64,000 bases of DNA from a virus. Positions within the stretch are counted from its first letter, which is position 1. Each line of letters begins with the position of its first letter. Below are positions 2,273 through 64,000 of this stretch, one piece after another. The position numbers and the translations under genes were made by a program. The notes beneath the pieces are model-generated. The model did no database searches, was not told where the DNA came from, and worked only from the letters and a program-made list of their open reading frames with translations. The stretch is taken from IMG/VR virus record IMGVR_UViG_3300033150_000870, positions 1 through 64,000 of that record. One strand, given 5' to 3'.

Positions 2273-2850
2273 ACAATCACTCCTTCATCTTTTTTTAGAA
2301 ATGCATACTTTATAAATTTAACTAAACGAGCAATCCAATTCAAAAATACAAAAAAATTCCAAACAAAATCATTCGTGAAATGTCGTACCCTCGTGATGTG
2401 ATTCATAAATTGTACCATCGTTCTTATAAATTCCAATTTCAAATAGTTGAGATTATTGGCGCAAGAAATCCGATAGTATGGATTGCAGTTATGGATCATA
2501 TTGTTTTTAATGCAACCTTCTGGGTGTTCCCGAAAAACTCTGTAAATAAGGCATAACTCTGGAAATATATGTGTGATACAAAATGATTTTTTGCGCAGAT
2601 ATGCTAATAAAAATTTTTCAAATCGTGATCTTTTTAGTGTAATTTTGGGCACATCTACAACATATTGAATTTTTATTAAGTGATTCGAGTATTTTATGGC
2701 TTCGACTCCAATTGATGTTTTTTTGCGCATATATTTGTAGTATTGTTGTCTTGTTTCTTCAATGATTTTAAATTCCGAGTTTGATTTTTTGAGTTTATCA
2801 AGGTCATTTCTATAATCAACTACATACATTATGGGTATTTTTATTTTCAT
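2257..2850 (-). CDS. hypothetical protein, 197 aa, between E2-like and Ubl-like genes
   Basis: Unrecognised basic protein with several Cys/His in the middle (REHPEGC, IHNC, RISC) and a hydrophobic aromatic stretch near residues 160-185 that could be a membrane-associated helix. It overlaps the E2-like stop by 4 bases and the downstream candidate Ubl start by 16 bases, so the three genes form a coupled unit. A degenerate conjugation-related fold was considered but is not supported by clear motifs. Confidence 0.6.
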   Translation of the reverse strand: MKIKIPIMYVVDYRNDLDKLKKSNSEFKIIEETRQQYYKYMRKKTSIGVEAIKYSNHLIKIQYVVDVPKITLKRSRFEKFLLAYLRKKSFCITHIFPELCLIYRVFREHPEGCIKNNMIHNCNPYYRISCANNLNYLKLEFIRTMVQFMNHITRVRHFTNDFVWNFFVFLNWIARLVKFIKYAFLKKDEGVIVWQTN

Positions 2851-3557
2851 TGATGTTTCACCGCCACACTATAATATTCAGCACTTATGTATTTCACAAA
2901 TCTCTTTATATAATGAGCCACTCCAAGATATGGATGCCAATTTTCTTCCAAGTTGCCGAAACATGAATGTAGTACCACTTCTAAGAAATCCTCGTCATAT
3001 TTTGTTGCGCCAGCTACATTTTGATGGATACCACTTCCTAGTGTCGAAATTTTTGGTGGCACATTAGGATACCTTAGTGGGATAAGAAGCTCAATTTTGT
3101 ATATTTTGTCGGAGTCTAAGTCGGGTTTAAATTGTAATATTACATGTCTTGAATTATTAGTGTCGAATTTTACTGATACAATATGAGGCGATTTAAGTTT
3201 CTTTAGTAATTCCAATTCTTGTAGTAATCGTTCTCCCCATCGTTTGGAGTATGGTTGCGCCACAATATCAAGATGTCCAAGTCCGTCATTGTATTTTGTT
3301 TTTTCTATTATATCTTCTTTTATTCTTTTTTCTTTTGGTTTATATCCAAGATTATCAAGTAGTGTTTCCAACTTATTAACGACTGTAGGGGTATTATAAA
3401 AGACCCAGCAACCATAATTTTTGTCCCATCGTCTTCCGGTTAGTTTGTAGTCCCATTCTTTAACTTTAATTCTGAATTCTTCGTCATACTGATTTAATCT
3501 TACTTTTATTTTTCCATTGCTCGTAATTACAAATTCATACTCTTTTGGTTTGGACAT
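2847..3557 (-). CDS. UBC/E2-like protein with N-terminal extension
   Basis: E2 enzymes carry a ubiquitin-like protein as a thioester on a Cys. Residues 103-230 follow the UBC order: an N-terminal helix (SKRWGERLLQELELLKK), strands, then RYPNVPPKI (163-170, the YP..PP hallmark), HQN at 178-180, a Cys at 199 in HSCFG, and W207-x-P209 followed by a helix. Residues 1-75 form a separate domain with RRWDKNYGCWVF, resembling HARP-type modules. A TATA box at 3579-3588 gives an essentially leaderless start. The downstream gene pair may supply a partner Ubl. No E1 or protease was found on this arm. Confidence 0.7.
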   Translation of the reverse strand: MSKPKEYEFVITSNGKIKVRLNQYDEEFRIKVKEWDYKLTGRRWDKNYGCWVFYNTPTVVNKLETLLDNLGYKPKEKRIKEDIIEKTKYNDGLGHLDIVAQPYSKRWGERLLQELELLKKLKSPHIVSVKFDTNNSRHVILQFKPDLDSDKIYKIELLIPLRYPNVPPKISTLGSGIHQNVAGATKYDEDFLEVVLHSCFGNLEENWHPYLGVAHYIKRFVKYISAEYYSVAVKHQ

Positions 3558-43412: not shown

Positions 43413-45067
43413 TTGGTAAGAAAAACAAAAAATCTTATTAAAAAATGGGGTAATGAATACGAAAAATCTACACATTATAACTACGCGGGAGCACCATCAT
43501 TTTCACAACCCCTTGAATTAATGGTTCTCCAAAACTTGATGTGTAATGTCATCGAACCAACCTACTATGTACCCCAAGCCACACTCCTAAATCAAACCCT
43601 TGACCACTACTCCAAAATCACTGCGCAAAAACCAGAAACCCGATCCCAATACATTTCCCAAATTTTCCCCTCTTAACTACTGCTTTTTTTCCCCCTACTA
43701 ACGGGCTGGATTTGTTTGCGCAGATGATTGTTTATGCACGGGAAAAGGGTTATATGCGACTACAACCAATCATTGGAACGGTATTTCTTTCCACCCTCGA
43801 TGATTACAGTTTATTCAAAAGAGTATTTATGAGAGTTATGAAGACCCCCAACGATGTTATCGACTTCATTAATATCTGTAGAAACGGGAATATACGAAAA
43901 GGATTGGGGCGCAAGATAAAAAGAGTTATCAACGAGTGGCTTTATAAAAATATTAACGAGTATTGGGCACTTAAATACAAAAATCAACTCCGAATCATTA
44001 TAAGACTATGTCATCCCAATTTCAGTAAAATCTCAATATACTCCACATTGATTACGGATTGGATTATGGACTTTCAATATCCACAAAAACTCGATTATCT
44101 TGATGTTGCAACTGATATGCTTGAATCTCACTGTCCGCAAATATCCGCATACATCGATATGATCTCAGCTACTTCGGCGCAACAAATTCTGAATGCAATC
44201 AAAGAAGGAAGACTACCATACGAAATAGTCACGGGAGCAATAAAACCTGAAGCTGACGGTTGGAAGGAGTTAATGAAGCAGATGCCATATTTTGCTCTTT
44301 TGCGCCATTTAGTTACCTTTTATCGGAATGGATTATTTGATGATAAGGAAGTAGTAGATTACATTTATAAAAGATTAATAGACAAGAAAGCCGTAAAAAC
44401 TGCAATGATATTACCATTCAGATTTCTTGAGCCGATGAAACGAATAATAGATCGAAAAATACAGAAAGGATTAGAAAAAGCATTTGATAATTCATTTGAT
44501 AACTTAGAGCCAATAGAAGGAGAAATCGTGATTGCAACTGATATGAGTGGTTCAATGGATAGTCCAATCAGTAGAAAGTCAAGTATAAAATTCTGTGATA
44601 TTGCGGGGATATTAACTGCGGGTATATATTGGAAGAATAAAGATCATTGTCGGGTTTTACCATTTAACAGTCATGTATTAGAATTTAGTCCAAGATCATT
44701 CAAAAGAGCAATTGACATAGCACAATGGTTCCACTACCCGGAGAATGGCACAAATTTATCTGCGCCGATAGAGTTTATGGAGATTAACAAGATTAAGGCG
44801 GATGTATTCATAGGAATCACGGACAATGAAGAATGGATGGGTACTGGTGTGATGAATGCATTGAAAAGCTATAGGATGAACATAAACCCGAATATGCATG
44901 CTTTTTTGATCCGAATTGATCCCTATGTCGAGGATGTGGCATTAAATCTTGATGACCCGTTGAATCATATTATTAGCGGTTGGAGTGACAATATCTTAGG
45001 ATTCATCAATATAATATTAAAAGGAGAAGACTTAATTTCTAAGATACAAGAATATTTCCCCCTCTAA
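43413..45067 (+). CDS. Ro60/TROVE-vWA RNA-binding protein, joined by a -1 frameshift
   Basis: Ro60 proteins bind Y RNAs and misfolded RNA in a helical ring (TROVE) closed by a vWA domain. A first frame (TTG 43413 after GAGGTGAT; ends TAA 43674-43676) encodes the start of TROVE, including NYAGAP and ELMVLQNLM...YYV. A second frame, open from before 43661, continues without loss (PPTNGLDLFAQMIVYAREKG, matching the Ro segment APKNDPALFALALA). It then gives NIRKGLGRKIKRVINEWL, MPYFALLRHLVTF and a vWA domain with the MIDAS motif DMSGSM, a Thr in NGTNLSAP and an Asp in GITDNEEW. The junction is the heptamer T_TTC_CCC at 43664-43670, in phase. Joined length is about 551 aa, close to known Ro proteins (about 530-540). 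A sequencing error or true disruption cannot be excluded. Confidence 0.8.
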
Positions 45068-57014: not shown

Positions 57015-57290
57015 AAAGGCTTTTAAAAAGCGCTGAAAATCACAAATTAAAACTTAAAACCGGGAATTTTTTTATGGATATATAAATTTGGGGTTTTGTC
57101 GTATTTTTTTGATTAGAGAATGATAGTTGGCGGGGGAGTTGAATTTTGTTGATTGTCGGGAAGTATTCAAAACCTTATCTTATTGATTTACAGGTTTAGT
57201 GCGAGGGTCGAAAATATAAAAGTGGAAATATTTAAATATGAAGATGTCGAAATAAAATGTGTATATATACAAACAAAATGAGGTGATGCC
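57015..57290 (+). promoter_or_regulatory. control region A, homologous to region B at 61.65 kb
   Basis: Noncoding. Shared elements in order with region B: AAGGCTTTTAAAAAGCGCT with an inverted repeat GCTTTT-A-AAAAGC, then AAAATCAC; two copies of AAAACTT; TCGTATT; a G-rich block (GGCGGGGGAG ... GTCGGGAAG); TTTACAG; GGAAATATTTAAA followed by ATGAAGATG. TATA-like ATATATAC and AGGTGAT come last. Likely the shared promoter/operator, or an origin, of the block of small genes. Confidence 0.6.
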
Positions 57291-61645: not shown

Positions 61646-61920
61646 GGCTTTTAAGAAGCGCTAAAAATCACGGTTTTGGATTGAAACTTAAAACTTAAAA
61701 CTTATTTTTTTATTATTATATTTTTCGTATTAGTCGTATCAAGAATACTTGGGGGAGGAAATAGGTTTTTGGTGGGTTGTGGGGATGCTATTTTTTTACA
61801 GATTAATTAAACGGAAAATATTTAAAAAGGATGAAGACATTGACTACATATATAAAGAAAAAGTTTGGCATATAACTTGTAAAGTAGTGTATATTATAAA
61901 TAATTAAAAAGGAGTGTGAT
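61646..61920 (+). promoter_or_regulatory. control region B, upstream of the ubiquitin-like cassette
   Basis: Noncoding. It holds AAGGCTTTTAAGAAGCGCT, AAAAATCAC, three AAAACTT-type repeats (61684-61704), T-runs, TCGTATC, a G-rich block (GGGGGAGG through GTGGGGATG), TTTACAG, GGAAAATATTTAAAAAGG, ATGAAGACATTGAC. These are in the same order as region A. TATA boxes ATATATAAAG (near 61850) and ATTATAAATA (near 61893) precede AAGGAGTGTGAT (61909-61920). The repeat architecture suggests common control of both blocks. Confidence 0.6.
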
Positions 61921-61926
61921 AGCCCA

Positions 61927-62190
61927 ATGGGTGTTGATGAATTTAATGAAAATGTTGATGAAGTTAAAAAAATTAAAATTAAGGTCTTTTTATCGGGTGT
62001 TGGTGACCGAGAAATAGAATTAAATGAAGGTGCTACGGCTGATGATCTTATTGATATACTATCTAATGAAGGCTATTGGAAGCCTGGATATTACCTTATG
62101 CGAAATGGTAGGTTAGTTTTTGGTTCTGATACATTAACTAATGGATGTGCTTACTTAGTTTCATGGAAGGTTCATGGTGGTACTCTCTAA
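61927..62190 (+). CDS. ubiquitin-like protein with C-terminal GG-TL
   Basis: At 87 aa, residues 15-85 have the beta-grasp order: IKIKVFLSGVGDREIEL (hairpin), ATADDLIDILSNEG (helix), YYLMRNGRLVF (strands), SDTLTNGCAYLVSWKVHGG (last strand). Gly84-Gly85 are followed by Thr-Leu, so two residues must be removed before activation. The JAMM protease two genes on is the obvious candidate. Acidic N-terminal extension of about 13 residues. Followed by E2/RING, JAMM and E1 genes; a conjugated or carrier Ubl is inferred. Confidence 0.8.
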   Translation: MGVDEFNENVDEVKKIKIKVFLSGVGDREIELNEGATADDLIDILSNEGYWKPGYYLMRNGRLVFGSDTLTNGCAYLVSWKVHGGTL

Positions 62191-62237
62191 TCTCTAATTT
62201 TCCTTATTTTTTTTGTACTTCTTATTTTTTGTAAGGT
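62191..62237 (+). terminator. T-rich tract between Ubl and E2/RING genes
   Basis: Eight T and then six T follow the Ubl stop, before AAGGTGACAAATT and the next ATG. It could terminate part of the transcripts, making Ubl more abundant than the enzymes. No new TATA box is seen here. Confidence 0.4.
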
Positions 62238-62245
62238 GACAAATT

Positions 62246-62980
62246 ATGATTGATATACGATATATTATTAAAGAGTTAGAGAAAATAGAGAATATTCACG
62301 ATATTGTAATCTATGATTCTCAGAATTTCGGGTTTTACTATGATTATGAGATTAAGTACAACGATTTAATACAAACTGGTACTGTGTTCATTGATGTTCT
62401 ATGTTGCGCAAATAATGAATATGAATTTATTGAGCATTACCATGAAAAAATATTTAAATATTACATAGATTCTGAGCGAAACGAATACTATCATCCTCAC
62501 ATTAGTGTATCAAGCAGTTTTCTATGCTTGGGAGAATATTCAGAAATTATTGAAAAAACGATAATGAATATCGAGAAAATAGAAGATATGTATCTATTCA
62601 CAATAAACATAATTTTAAATGTGCTAAATAGCTATAATGCATACGACAAATACTACGACATTTTTACACCAATAAATGATGAAGATGATTACGACGAAGA
62701 CGACGACGGATACATTGGAACATGTAGCGAGTGTGGAACGGAAATATACGAAGGATACAATTACTACCATTGTCACGAATGCAATGAAATATTGTGTGAA
62801 GACTGCTACTACTTCTGTGAAACATGTGAAGAAGTGTATTGCAGTTATCACTTGAAGCCATGTCAAATATGTAGTCAAATGGTGCATTGTGAGATTCTAT
62901 GTTGGATGTGCTATTCTTTTATGCGTAAATTTCTAAGGATACTCTATAGGTTCGTTAATTTTGAAGGAGATGATGAATAA
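62246..62980 (+). CDS. E2-like (UBC) domain fused to RING/ZZ-like zinc domain
   Basis: At 244 aa. Residues 1-140 read as an E2 fold: a first helix (IRYIIKELEKIE), strands (FYYDYEIKYND, TGTVFIDVLCC), then YYHPHISVSSSFLCLG. In that segment H83-P-H-I precedes C94 in F-L-C-L-G, the E2 catalytic pattern, followed by two helices. An acidic linker (145-155) leads to a Cys/His-rich domain (160-222). It has C160-x2-C163, C176-x2-C179, C184-x2-C187, C191-x2-C194, C199-x2-H202, C206-x2-C209, C215 and C219-x2-C222, resembling ZZ/RING treble clefs. Such a fusion would join conjugation and ligase functions. Motifs are seen; activity is inferred. Confidence 0.7.
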   Translation: MIDIRYIIKELEKIENIHDIVIYDSQNFGFYYDYEIKYNDLIQTGTVFIDVLCCANNEYEFIEHYHEKIFKYYIDSERNEYYHPHISVSSSFLCLGEYSEIIEKTIMNIEKIEDMYLFTINIILNVLNSYNAYDKYYDIFTPINDEDDYDEDDDGYIGTCSECGTEIYEGYNYYHCHECNEILCEDCYYFCETCEEVYCSYHLKPCQICSQMVHCEILCWMCYSFMRKFLRILYRFVNFEGDDE

Positions 62981-63787
62981 ATGACCAAAATTATATTAGT
63001 AATTCCCAAAAAGGCGTTTAATTTTCTTTATGACTTACTTTATGCAGTAGATACCGAGTTCGTACTGTTGTTTTCAGCATATAGGCGTTCAAAAAGCAAA
63101 CAAAAGATCATTATCGAGATTGAAGACATCTATTATTTGAAACAAACAAATACACGAACAAGCACTGAAATAGATGAGCGAGAAATGGCAACATTCATAG
63201 AGAATCACAAGGAATTATTCACAAATTACGACAAAATAATGTATAATGAGAAAATAATCGGTTGGATTCATTCACACAATACAATGGGAGCATTTTTTTC
63301 ATCAATCGATAAAGCTATGAATAATCTAATAGCTGGATTTGCGGGATTCTCGGTAGGACTAGTAATTTCACGAACTAAAGATCAAAAACTCGAATATTAC
63401 ATTGAATATACTGAAGATGGCATAAAACAGACTGACTACGAATTAATACAAAACAATATGTATAGACCTAACACTAATTACCTAAAATATATAAAAGAAA
63501 AAGAAAAAATCATAAAAGAACTGAACGAATTAAGCGATATTGATGATTTTGAGTATCCATATCCGTATAACTATGAAAAAACAAAAACAAACAAACTGGA
63601 TGTAGAAACAATAAAAACGATATTATATTCTTATGACGAACAAGAAGTATTAGAAGCAATACATAAATATCTCAACGAAACATACCCAACACCAGACAAT
63701 TATATGAAATTACAAGAAATTATAGATGATCTGTGGGATTTACTCAATGAATTTAGCGAGTTATCAAACTTTTACGGGTGGTATTAA
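62981..63787 (+). CDS. JAMM/MPN metalloprotease (deubiquitinase-like)
   Basis: At 268 aa. Residues 95-110 contain the complete JAMM signature H97-x-H99-x7-S107-x2-D110 (GWIHSHNTMGAFFSSIDKA), with a candidate catalytic Glu at 26 (DTEFVLLF). JAMM enzymes trim Ubl precursors or remove Ubl from targets. The C-terminal 100 residues are helical and acidic and may bind the partner. ATG follows the E2/RING stop directly with GGAGATGATG as ribosome site. It probably matures the GGTL-ending Ubl. Confidence 0.85.
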   Translation: MTKIILVIPKKAFNFLYDLLYAVDTEFVLLFSAYRRSKSKQKIIIEIEDIYYLKQTNTRTSTEIDEREMATFIENHKELFTNYDKIMYNEKIIGWIHSHNTMGAFFSSIDKAMNNLIAGFAGFSVGLVISRTKDQKLEYYIEYTEDGIKQTDYELIQNNMYRPNTNYLKYIKEKEKIIKELNELSDIDDFEYPYPYNYEKTKTNKLDVETIKTILYSYDEQEVLEAIHKYLNETYPTPDNYMKLQEIIDDLWDLLNEFSELSNFYGWY

Positions 63788-63790
63788 ATT

Positions 63791-64000
63791 ATGCCTCGAT
63801 ATGAAGGATTCTTTAAATATTCTACGGAAAGACAGCGAATTGCATTAATCGGATGTGGGAGTCTTGGCTCATATACAGCGTTATTTCTATCAAAATGTGA
63901 ATTTCCATTATATCTCATTGATGGTGACATTGTAAAGTTCGGTAATTTCAATGTTCAATATTACGACATTCGCGACCGATACGAACTCAAAATAACACGG
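63791..64000 (+). CDS. E1/ThiF-like activating enzyme, N-terminal part
   Basis: Cut by the window end; 70 aa visible. IALIGCGSLGSYTALFLSKC is the ATP-binding G-x-G-x2-G; LYLIDGDIVKFGNFNVQYYD follows the ThiF/MoeB/E1 order with D44, D46, N52/N54 and Q56. The usual Arg before Gln is Val here. It would adenylate the C-terminal Gly of the Ubl. Adenylation and catalytic-Cys regions lie beyond the edge. Confidence 0.8.
   Translation, partial: MPRYEGFFKYSTERQRIALIGCGSLGSYTALFLSKCEFPLYLIDGDIVKFGNFNVQYYDIRDRYELKITR

Follow-up and report, generated by a model that had tools for sequence, protein, structure and literature searches.

Conjugation of ubiquitin-like proteins (Ubls) is known in prokaryotes from archaeal housekeeping and from anti-phage defence. 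The Bil, type II CBASS (Cap2-Cap3) and Bub systems all combine an E1, an E2, a JAB protein and a Ubl-like modifier in prokaryotic operons, and the Ubl-E2-JAB-E1 kind of operon was described in 2006 (PMC1779556). In the openly searchable literature, we found no account of such a four-gene set borne by a virus, and a review of jumbo phages leaves JAB, Ubl and ThiF unmentioned. The four-gene cassette considered here, carried by a virus that probably infects archaea, is most likely a virus-centred branch of this known kind, to judge from the sequence comparisons that follow.

The DNA analysed (the window) is a stretch of 64,000 nucleotides, positions 1 to 64,000 of IMG/VR record IMGVR_UViG_3300033150_000870, which has 68,328 bases. 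The first 114 bp of the record are repeated as its last 114 bp, so the genome is circular, with a length of 68,214 bp. A terminase large subunit and an HK97-type capsid protein indicate a tailed virus. An archaeal host seems probable because the genome encodes an RPA C-terminal domain (1.4e-5), a weak match to PCNA, a B-family polymerase, a RadA/KaiC-like ATPase and an ERCC4 nuclease; the RPA domain was found solely in archaea among the control genomes and is absent from 12 cassette-bearing relatives. No tRNA or Rfam match was found in the virus sequence.

The cassette consists of four genes on the plus strand: Ubl1 (61927..62190, 87 aa), a predicted beta-grasp modifier; an E2-like protein (62246..62980, 244 aa); a JAMM/MPN+ protease (62981..63787, 268 aa); and an E1/ThiF adenylating enzyme (63791..64519, 242 aa), whose gene is cut by the end of the window at 64000. 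The ORF coordinates bear out the place and strand given for the four genes in a preliminary description of this DNA, and when the contig is extended past 64000 the E1 frame ends at 64519 with a complete adenylation domain. The replication genes of the virus lie upstream of the cassette on the same strand.

Operon type 6d of Iyer 2006 (Ubl, JAB, E1, E2 and a helical protein; PRTRC-like), found on mobile elements among others, has the same set of parts. The E2s of that type lack the classical histidine and have a histidine after the cysteine (PMC1779556), whereas both histidines of the window protein precede its cysteine; among the PRTRC models, PRTRC_A matched the JAMM protein at 0.088, far under the cut-off, and PRTRC_B and PRTRC_ThiF matched nothing in the window. 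The ubiquitin operon of Caldiarchaeum subterraneum is archaeal and likewise combines a JAMM-trimmed pro-Ubl, an E1, an E2 and a zinc domain, but it has a separate RING protein, a large E1, a canonical E2 and a JAMM gene on the opposite strand (PMC5654768). Caldiarchaeum-type systems pair a eukaryote-like E1, with zinc and catalytic-Cys domains, with a separate small RING protein, whereas the window E1 is only 242 aa long without CxxC motifs and the zinc domain is fused to the E2-like protein. From type II CBASS the cassette differs in its unfused E1 and E2-like proteins, in the absence of a CD-NTase among its genes and in the distant scores of its E1. With Bil (BilABCD), compared by functions alone, it has the list of four functions in common, and it differs from SAMP and ThiS-MoaD systems, which have no dedicated E2, in having an E2-like gene.

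The JAMM motif reported in the preliminary description is indeed complete (H97-S-H99-x7-S107-xx-D110). The protein matches Pfam JAB at 3.2e-8, over the cut-off, and a profile of viral JAMM proteins built without the window recovers it at 7e-22 (motif IHSHNxMxxFFSxxD). H97, S98, H99, M102, S107 and D110 are invariant in 16 relatives, and no other ORF of the genome contains the pattern H[ST]Hx7SxxD. The catalytic glutamate would be E26 or the aligned D24, a point on which alignments disagree. Compared with structures, the JAMM profile finds CSN5, archaeal Rpn11 and AMSH (1e-4 to 0.009). A tblastn search of phages with the window JAMM protein returned nothing; the JAMM protein of phage crAss001 aligns with it pairwise at 5e-8.

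The nucleotide site first recognised in the E1 has been confirmed as well, by a match to Pfam ThiF just under the cut-off (4.7e-6) and by recovery with a window-free profile (1.2e-19). Its recognisable residues are the GxGxxG motif, D44, D46, N52, K67, D119 and C180, and it has neither a separate E2-recruiting domain (UFD) nor CxxC zinc motifs. The arginine of the NxxR(Q) motif is replaced by valine (N-F-N-V-Q), and this arginine is absent across the whole cysteine-bearing group of viral E1s. C180 and K183 are invariant with the E1s of crAss001 and of Flavobacterium phage FpV4, and the crAss001 enzyme matches the window E1 pairwise at 3e-13. ThiF is the best-scoring named family; the E1 profile finds structures of UBA5, the NEDD8 E1, ThiF and Cap2 (best 6e-18), and the PADLOC E1-E2 model matches at 3e-7, a distant likeness to defence E1s. 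A plasmid search with the E1 found solely distant ThiF proteins. In the E1 tree the window falls in a viral clade (support 92/86), nearest to loci L079 and L092 (83/79) and apart from E. coli MoeB, ThiF and two cellular loci. This placement inside the viral clade is tentative, as the branch of the window E1 is very long (3.5 changes per site).

The 244-aa protein had been described as an E2-like domain joined to a zinc ligase-like domain, a reading of which the E2-like half stands. Its N-terminal UBC-like domain carries H83-P-H85 followed by C94-L-G96, and a window-free profile made from the cores of 30 relatives recovers the protein at 2.6e-8, with a runner-up score of 0.3 among 554 ORFs. H83, H85, C94 and G96 are invariant in the group nearest to the window, where a conserved segment resembling F-L-N-x-W-N follows, and H-x-H then C-x-G is common to the E2-like proteins of nearly all loci. 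The invariance of C94 supports its proposal as the E2-like cysteine. The earlier text had made a UBC fold one of two points on which its reading should be judged. In the AlphaFold2 model (pLDDT 66) a helix precedes three strands, after which come the motif loop and two more helices, an arrangement that fits UBC, as does the spacing of the cysteine some 10 residues after the histidine motif. The family profile finds UBE2W in the PDB at E ~0.5, with H-P-H...C aligned to the catalytic HPH...C of the human enzyme, and no Foldseek match is significant (N-terminus E >0.1). On balance a UBC fold is favoured, though not decisively. The weak Foldseek matches outside the zinc part include Cdc34, the Tsg101 UEV domain and UFC1. 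We therefore assign the protein as E2-like with fair confidence; since alignment with the crAss-type E2 profile failed in hhalign, the E2 link runs through other phage groups. The C-terminal zinc domain (about residues 155-221) is FYVE/RING-like, its likeness to FYVE being at least as great as that to RING: FYVE domains lead its Foldseek matches, and against Pfam the 244-aa protein gave nothing except a weak C1 zinc domain match (0.039), RING models matching none of it. The RING of the earlier label is accordingly widened here to FYVE/RING-like.

The GG proposed as the C-terminus of Ubl1 is present and is followed by two further residues, the protein ending K81-V-H-G84-G85-T-L (..KVHGGTL). Ubl1 matched neither the phage Ubl profiles nor, with hhalign, the crAss-type Ubl profile. 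It was folded alone, since the C-terminal part of its alignments with phage Ubls was considered incorrect. The AlphaFold2 model (mean pLDDT 61) has the topology b-b-a-b-b-b, its nearest Foldseek neighbours are ISG15, ubiquitin and the BAT3 Ubl (no match being significant), and the sequence matches Pfam ThiS at 0.041 and the MoaD structure at 0.086. Together with the position of the gene, which is that of the Ubl gene in relatives, this modestly favours a beta-grasp modifier, as had been suggested. The Ubls of relatives end in a conserved SG and a short variable tail, as expected if JAMM proteins trim them.

Relatives in other viruses are numerous, and they are the nearest ones found. Single-sequence scans of viral contigs with the E1, the UBC protein, TerL and MCP brought up none of them; the virus is divergent, and relatives were therefore reached through the JAMM alignment. 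A scan with a joint JAMM alignment gave 154 viral contigs with relatives, 80 of which were taken further, and an E1 scan added 16 loci. Some 95 phage genomes and viral contigs have a JAMM gene of the cassette type, nearly always next to an E1 gene; gene calling shows an E1 directly after it, at most 100 bp away, in 86 of 96 loci. All four genes stand in the order Ubl-E2-JAMM-E1 at 61 of the 98 loci (many others are truncated by the end of the contig), an arrangement that is not a product of chance; these counts are of loci rather than independent events, since many contigs are close kin. By contrast with the viral loci, a single pattern search of 84,980 species genomes yielded two cellular loci with a cassette-type JAMM (L090 and L091), in which JAMM-E1 has differently built neighbours and the E1 falls outside the viral clade. 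At the sensitivity of that pattern, then, the family looks virus-centred.

Three builds of the cassette can be distinguished among these loci. The crAss/Fipvunavirus type came to light through tblastn with the E1, which pointed to crAss001. There (L004:1283-5690) gp79 has, by eye, a Ubl-like N-terminus, the unnamed gp78 has the E2-like motif, gp77 matches JAB (4.9e-4) and gp76 matches ThiF (8e-16), so that gp79-gp78-gp77-gp76 stand in the order of the window, and the same set is present in FpV4, cr111, DAC17 and cr85. Cassettes of crAss001 and the Fipvunavirus FpV4 share with the window the four parts, their order and strand, homologous JAMM and E1 proteins, an E1 that has lost the Arg of NxxR and kept the C and K of C-x-x-K, and an E2-like H-x-H...C-x-G. 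They differ in their E2-like proteins, which have about 400 aa, lack the zinc domain and have no profile match to the window's 244-aa protein, and in their Ubls, where a C-terminal domain is fused after ..SGA while Ubl1 ends in GGTL. In Flavobacterium phage Fpv1 (L008:4923-7215) an ORF of 249 aa on the opposite strand interrupts the JAMM gene; that of FpV4 is a single frame. In a second, large group the Ubl has 69 aa and the E2-like protein about 470-690 aa. The third is a small group (L018 and L063) whose E2-like protein, like that of the window, has HPHV...C-x-G fused to zinc fingers, here several of the CxxC type; unlike the window, these loci have the order E2-E1-JAMM, an E1 without the cysteine (as also in L062) and no adjacent Ubl that we could find.

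The preliminary description had called a complete set in an archaeal tailed virus unusual. This holds for archaeal viruses. The set itself, with unchanged gene order, is found in crAss-like phages, Flavobacterium phages and dozens of other viral contigs: bacterial viruses, laboratory-grown gut phages among them, carry it widely and for the most part without annotation. In crAss001 and FpV4 its genes are annotated merely as hypothetical, metalloprotease and ThiF. The neighbours of phage cassettes encode a DnaB-like helicase-primase, an AAA_24 ATPase, a Toprim primase and a uracil-DNA glycosylase, and the crAss001 annotation lists a UDG, a primase and an exonuclease.

A control module precedes the cassette on the plus strand (61651..61757; TTAAGAAGCGCTAAAA ... 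AAACTTAAAACTTAAAAC ... TCGTAT ... ACTTGGGGGAGG). It had been taken for the cassette's own control region, a view that we abandon, as it is one of at least four copies along the same side of the genome, lying before several transcription units at about 57021 (57021-57060), 61651, 64962 (L003:4962-5067) and 66397 (L003:6397-6501). The repeats are 62-72% identical across 78 nt, and GGCTTTTAAGAAGCGCTAAAA is the same at 61646 and 66397. Because the module recurs, the cassette is probably expressed together with the adjoining units.

One of these units, past the window (L003:5210-6177, that is 65210-66177 of the record), has the same module upstream and encodes Ubl2 (65210-65386), a ThiS/SAMP2-like protein of 58 aa that ends in AGGA and matches ThiS at 9.5e-9, over the cut-off; the next gene encodes a protein of 262 aa that has CxxC motifs and matches no known family. 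A second UBC-like protein (2850..3557, minus strand, 236 aa) lies beyond the join of the circle, some 7 kb away from the cassette. Its UBC domain (about residues 104-215) has H-Q-N and a candidate cysteine 8 residues before the tryptophan of HSCFGNLEENW, and matches Pfam UQ_con (1.6e-4) and RWD (5e-4), both under the cut-off, and Ubc7 structures (8e-4). It may work in the same pathway as the cassette, and with Ubl2 it may form a parallel branch. On the same strand, 2850-3557 is followed by genes for a 197-aa protein containing Cys and His (2257-2850) and for a 149-aa protein (1823-2272, ..TPDILGA), neither of which has an informative family match; the latter might be a further beta-grasp protein.

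Taken together, the motifs and homology of the predicted parts and the conservation of their order support the suggestion that the cassette could activate, conjugate and remove a modifier. We consider it likely that the virus encodes, in these four genes, a self-contained cycle of ubiquitin-like conjugation, which probably acts early in infection. In such a cycle the JAMM protease would cut the two-residue TL tail off Ubl1 to expose Gly84-Gly85, as has been found experimentally for JAMM trimming of archaeal pro-ubiquitin in Caldiarchaeum (PMC5654768). The E1 would then adenylate the exposed glycine and form a thioester on Cys180, from which the E2-like protein would take over the modifier at its Cys94. 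The FYVE/RING-like zinc domain fused to it could give target or E3-like recognition, the modifier would be attached to a lysine or an N-terminus, and the JAMM protease would also undo the bond. Judged by position, the cassette is likely to act early, and its targets are more likely to be proteins of replication or of the host than virions: phage cassettes are grouped with replication genes, and that of the archaeal virus is on the replication side of its genome. A broader reading, which we hold tentatively, is that a dedicated Ubl conjugation system specific to viruses (UBE2W-like HPH E2s and Arg-less E1s) is common to archaeal and bacterial tailed viruses, which would use it early in infection as a core regulator of replication or of the takeover of the host; the archaeal virus would have expanded it with two Ubls and two E2-type proteins.

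The JAMM protein is the best conserved part of the cassette, as it might be if its work were counter-defence, stripping host Ubls (a SAMP or Bil-like tag) off viral proteins while the other three proteins, the Ubl, E2 and E1, act as decoys or compete for the machinery of the host. Bacterial conjugation is known to tag phage proteins (PMC10097602), and archaeal Borg elements carry many JAMM deSAMPylases that have been proposed to counter host tagging (PMC12660748). A deconjugase alone would be enough for this purpose, yet all four genes are kept in order in those 61 loci and the cysteines of the E1 and E2-like proteins are invariant in the main groups, which makes this explanation unlikely, if one to be kept in mind. 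We regard as quite unlikely that the cassette is a weapon or serves superinfection control, tagging host defence proteins or those of rival viruses as a virus-borne counterpart of Bil or CBASS conjugation: related systems do work in anti-phage defence (PMC10097602) and the E1 distantly resembles defence E1s (the PADLOC match given above), but the phage cassette lies among core replication genes and is kept within whole phage groups, which suggests a core function rather than an accessory weapon.

Both the ThiF score of the E1, the best among named families, and the ThiS-like Ubl2 would suit a sulfur carrier, Ubl1 and the E1 acting like ThiS/ThiF or MoaD/MoeB to supply thiocarboxylate sulfur, for instance for nucleotide modification. 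This is improbable given that a JAMM protein and an E2-like protein whose cysteine is invariant are constant partners, and that no rhodanese or sulfurtransferase is recognised beside the cassette. Recent capture of a Caldiarchaeum- or Asgard-type ubiquitin system from the archaeal host would account for the same four functions, for the pro-Ubl, JAMM and zinc domain and for the likely archaeal host, but seems very improbable. The E1 is short and lacks CxxC zinc motifs and a UFD, the E2 motif is HPH rather than HPN, and the two cellular JAMM loci are few among the species genomes covered at the pattern's sensitivity. Recent capture was rejected on the E1 tree, where the window lies in the viral clade, albeit with caution over its very long branch.

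If the conjugation cycle that we favour operates, a complete and order-conserved set in tailed viruses would mean that viruses run a protein-modifier cycle of their own, in a cassette that spans an archaeal virus and cultured phages of the gut and of fish pathogens. Its role is testable now, because crAss001 and FpV4 grow in laboratory hosts, and it may bear on the evolutionary birthplace of Ubl-E2-E1-JAMM modules.

Two further features of the genome were observed. A gene at 43712-45067 (plus strand) encodes a Ro60-like protein with TROVE and Ro60 vWA domains (2e-12 and 1e-12), here in an archaeal tailed virus. The 9-mer GGCGCAAAA (consensus TTTTnGGCGCAAAAA) has 38 copies in the window, where dinucleotide shuffles lead one to expect 0.24, and 44 genome-wide, with none in the loci of five relatives. 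It occurs on both strands, within and between genes (for example at 1058, 4520, 25214, 53733 and 59535), and is possibly a binding, packaging or segregation signal.
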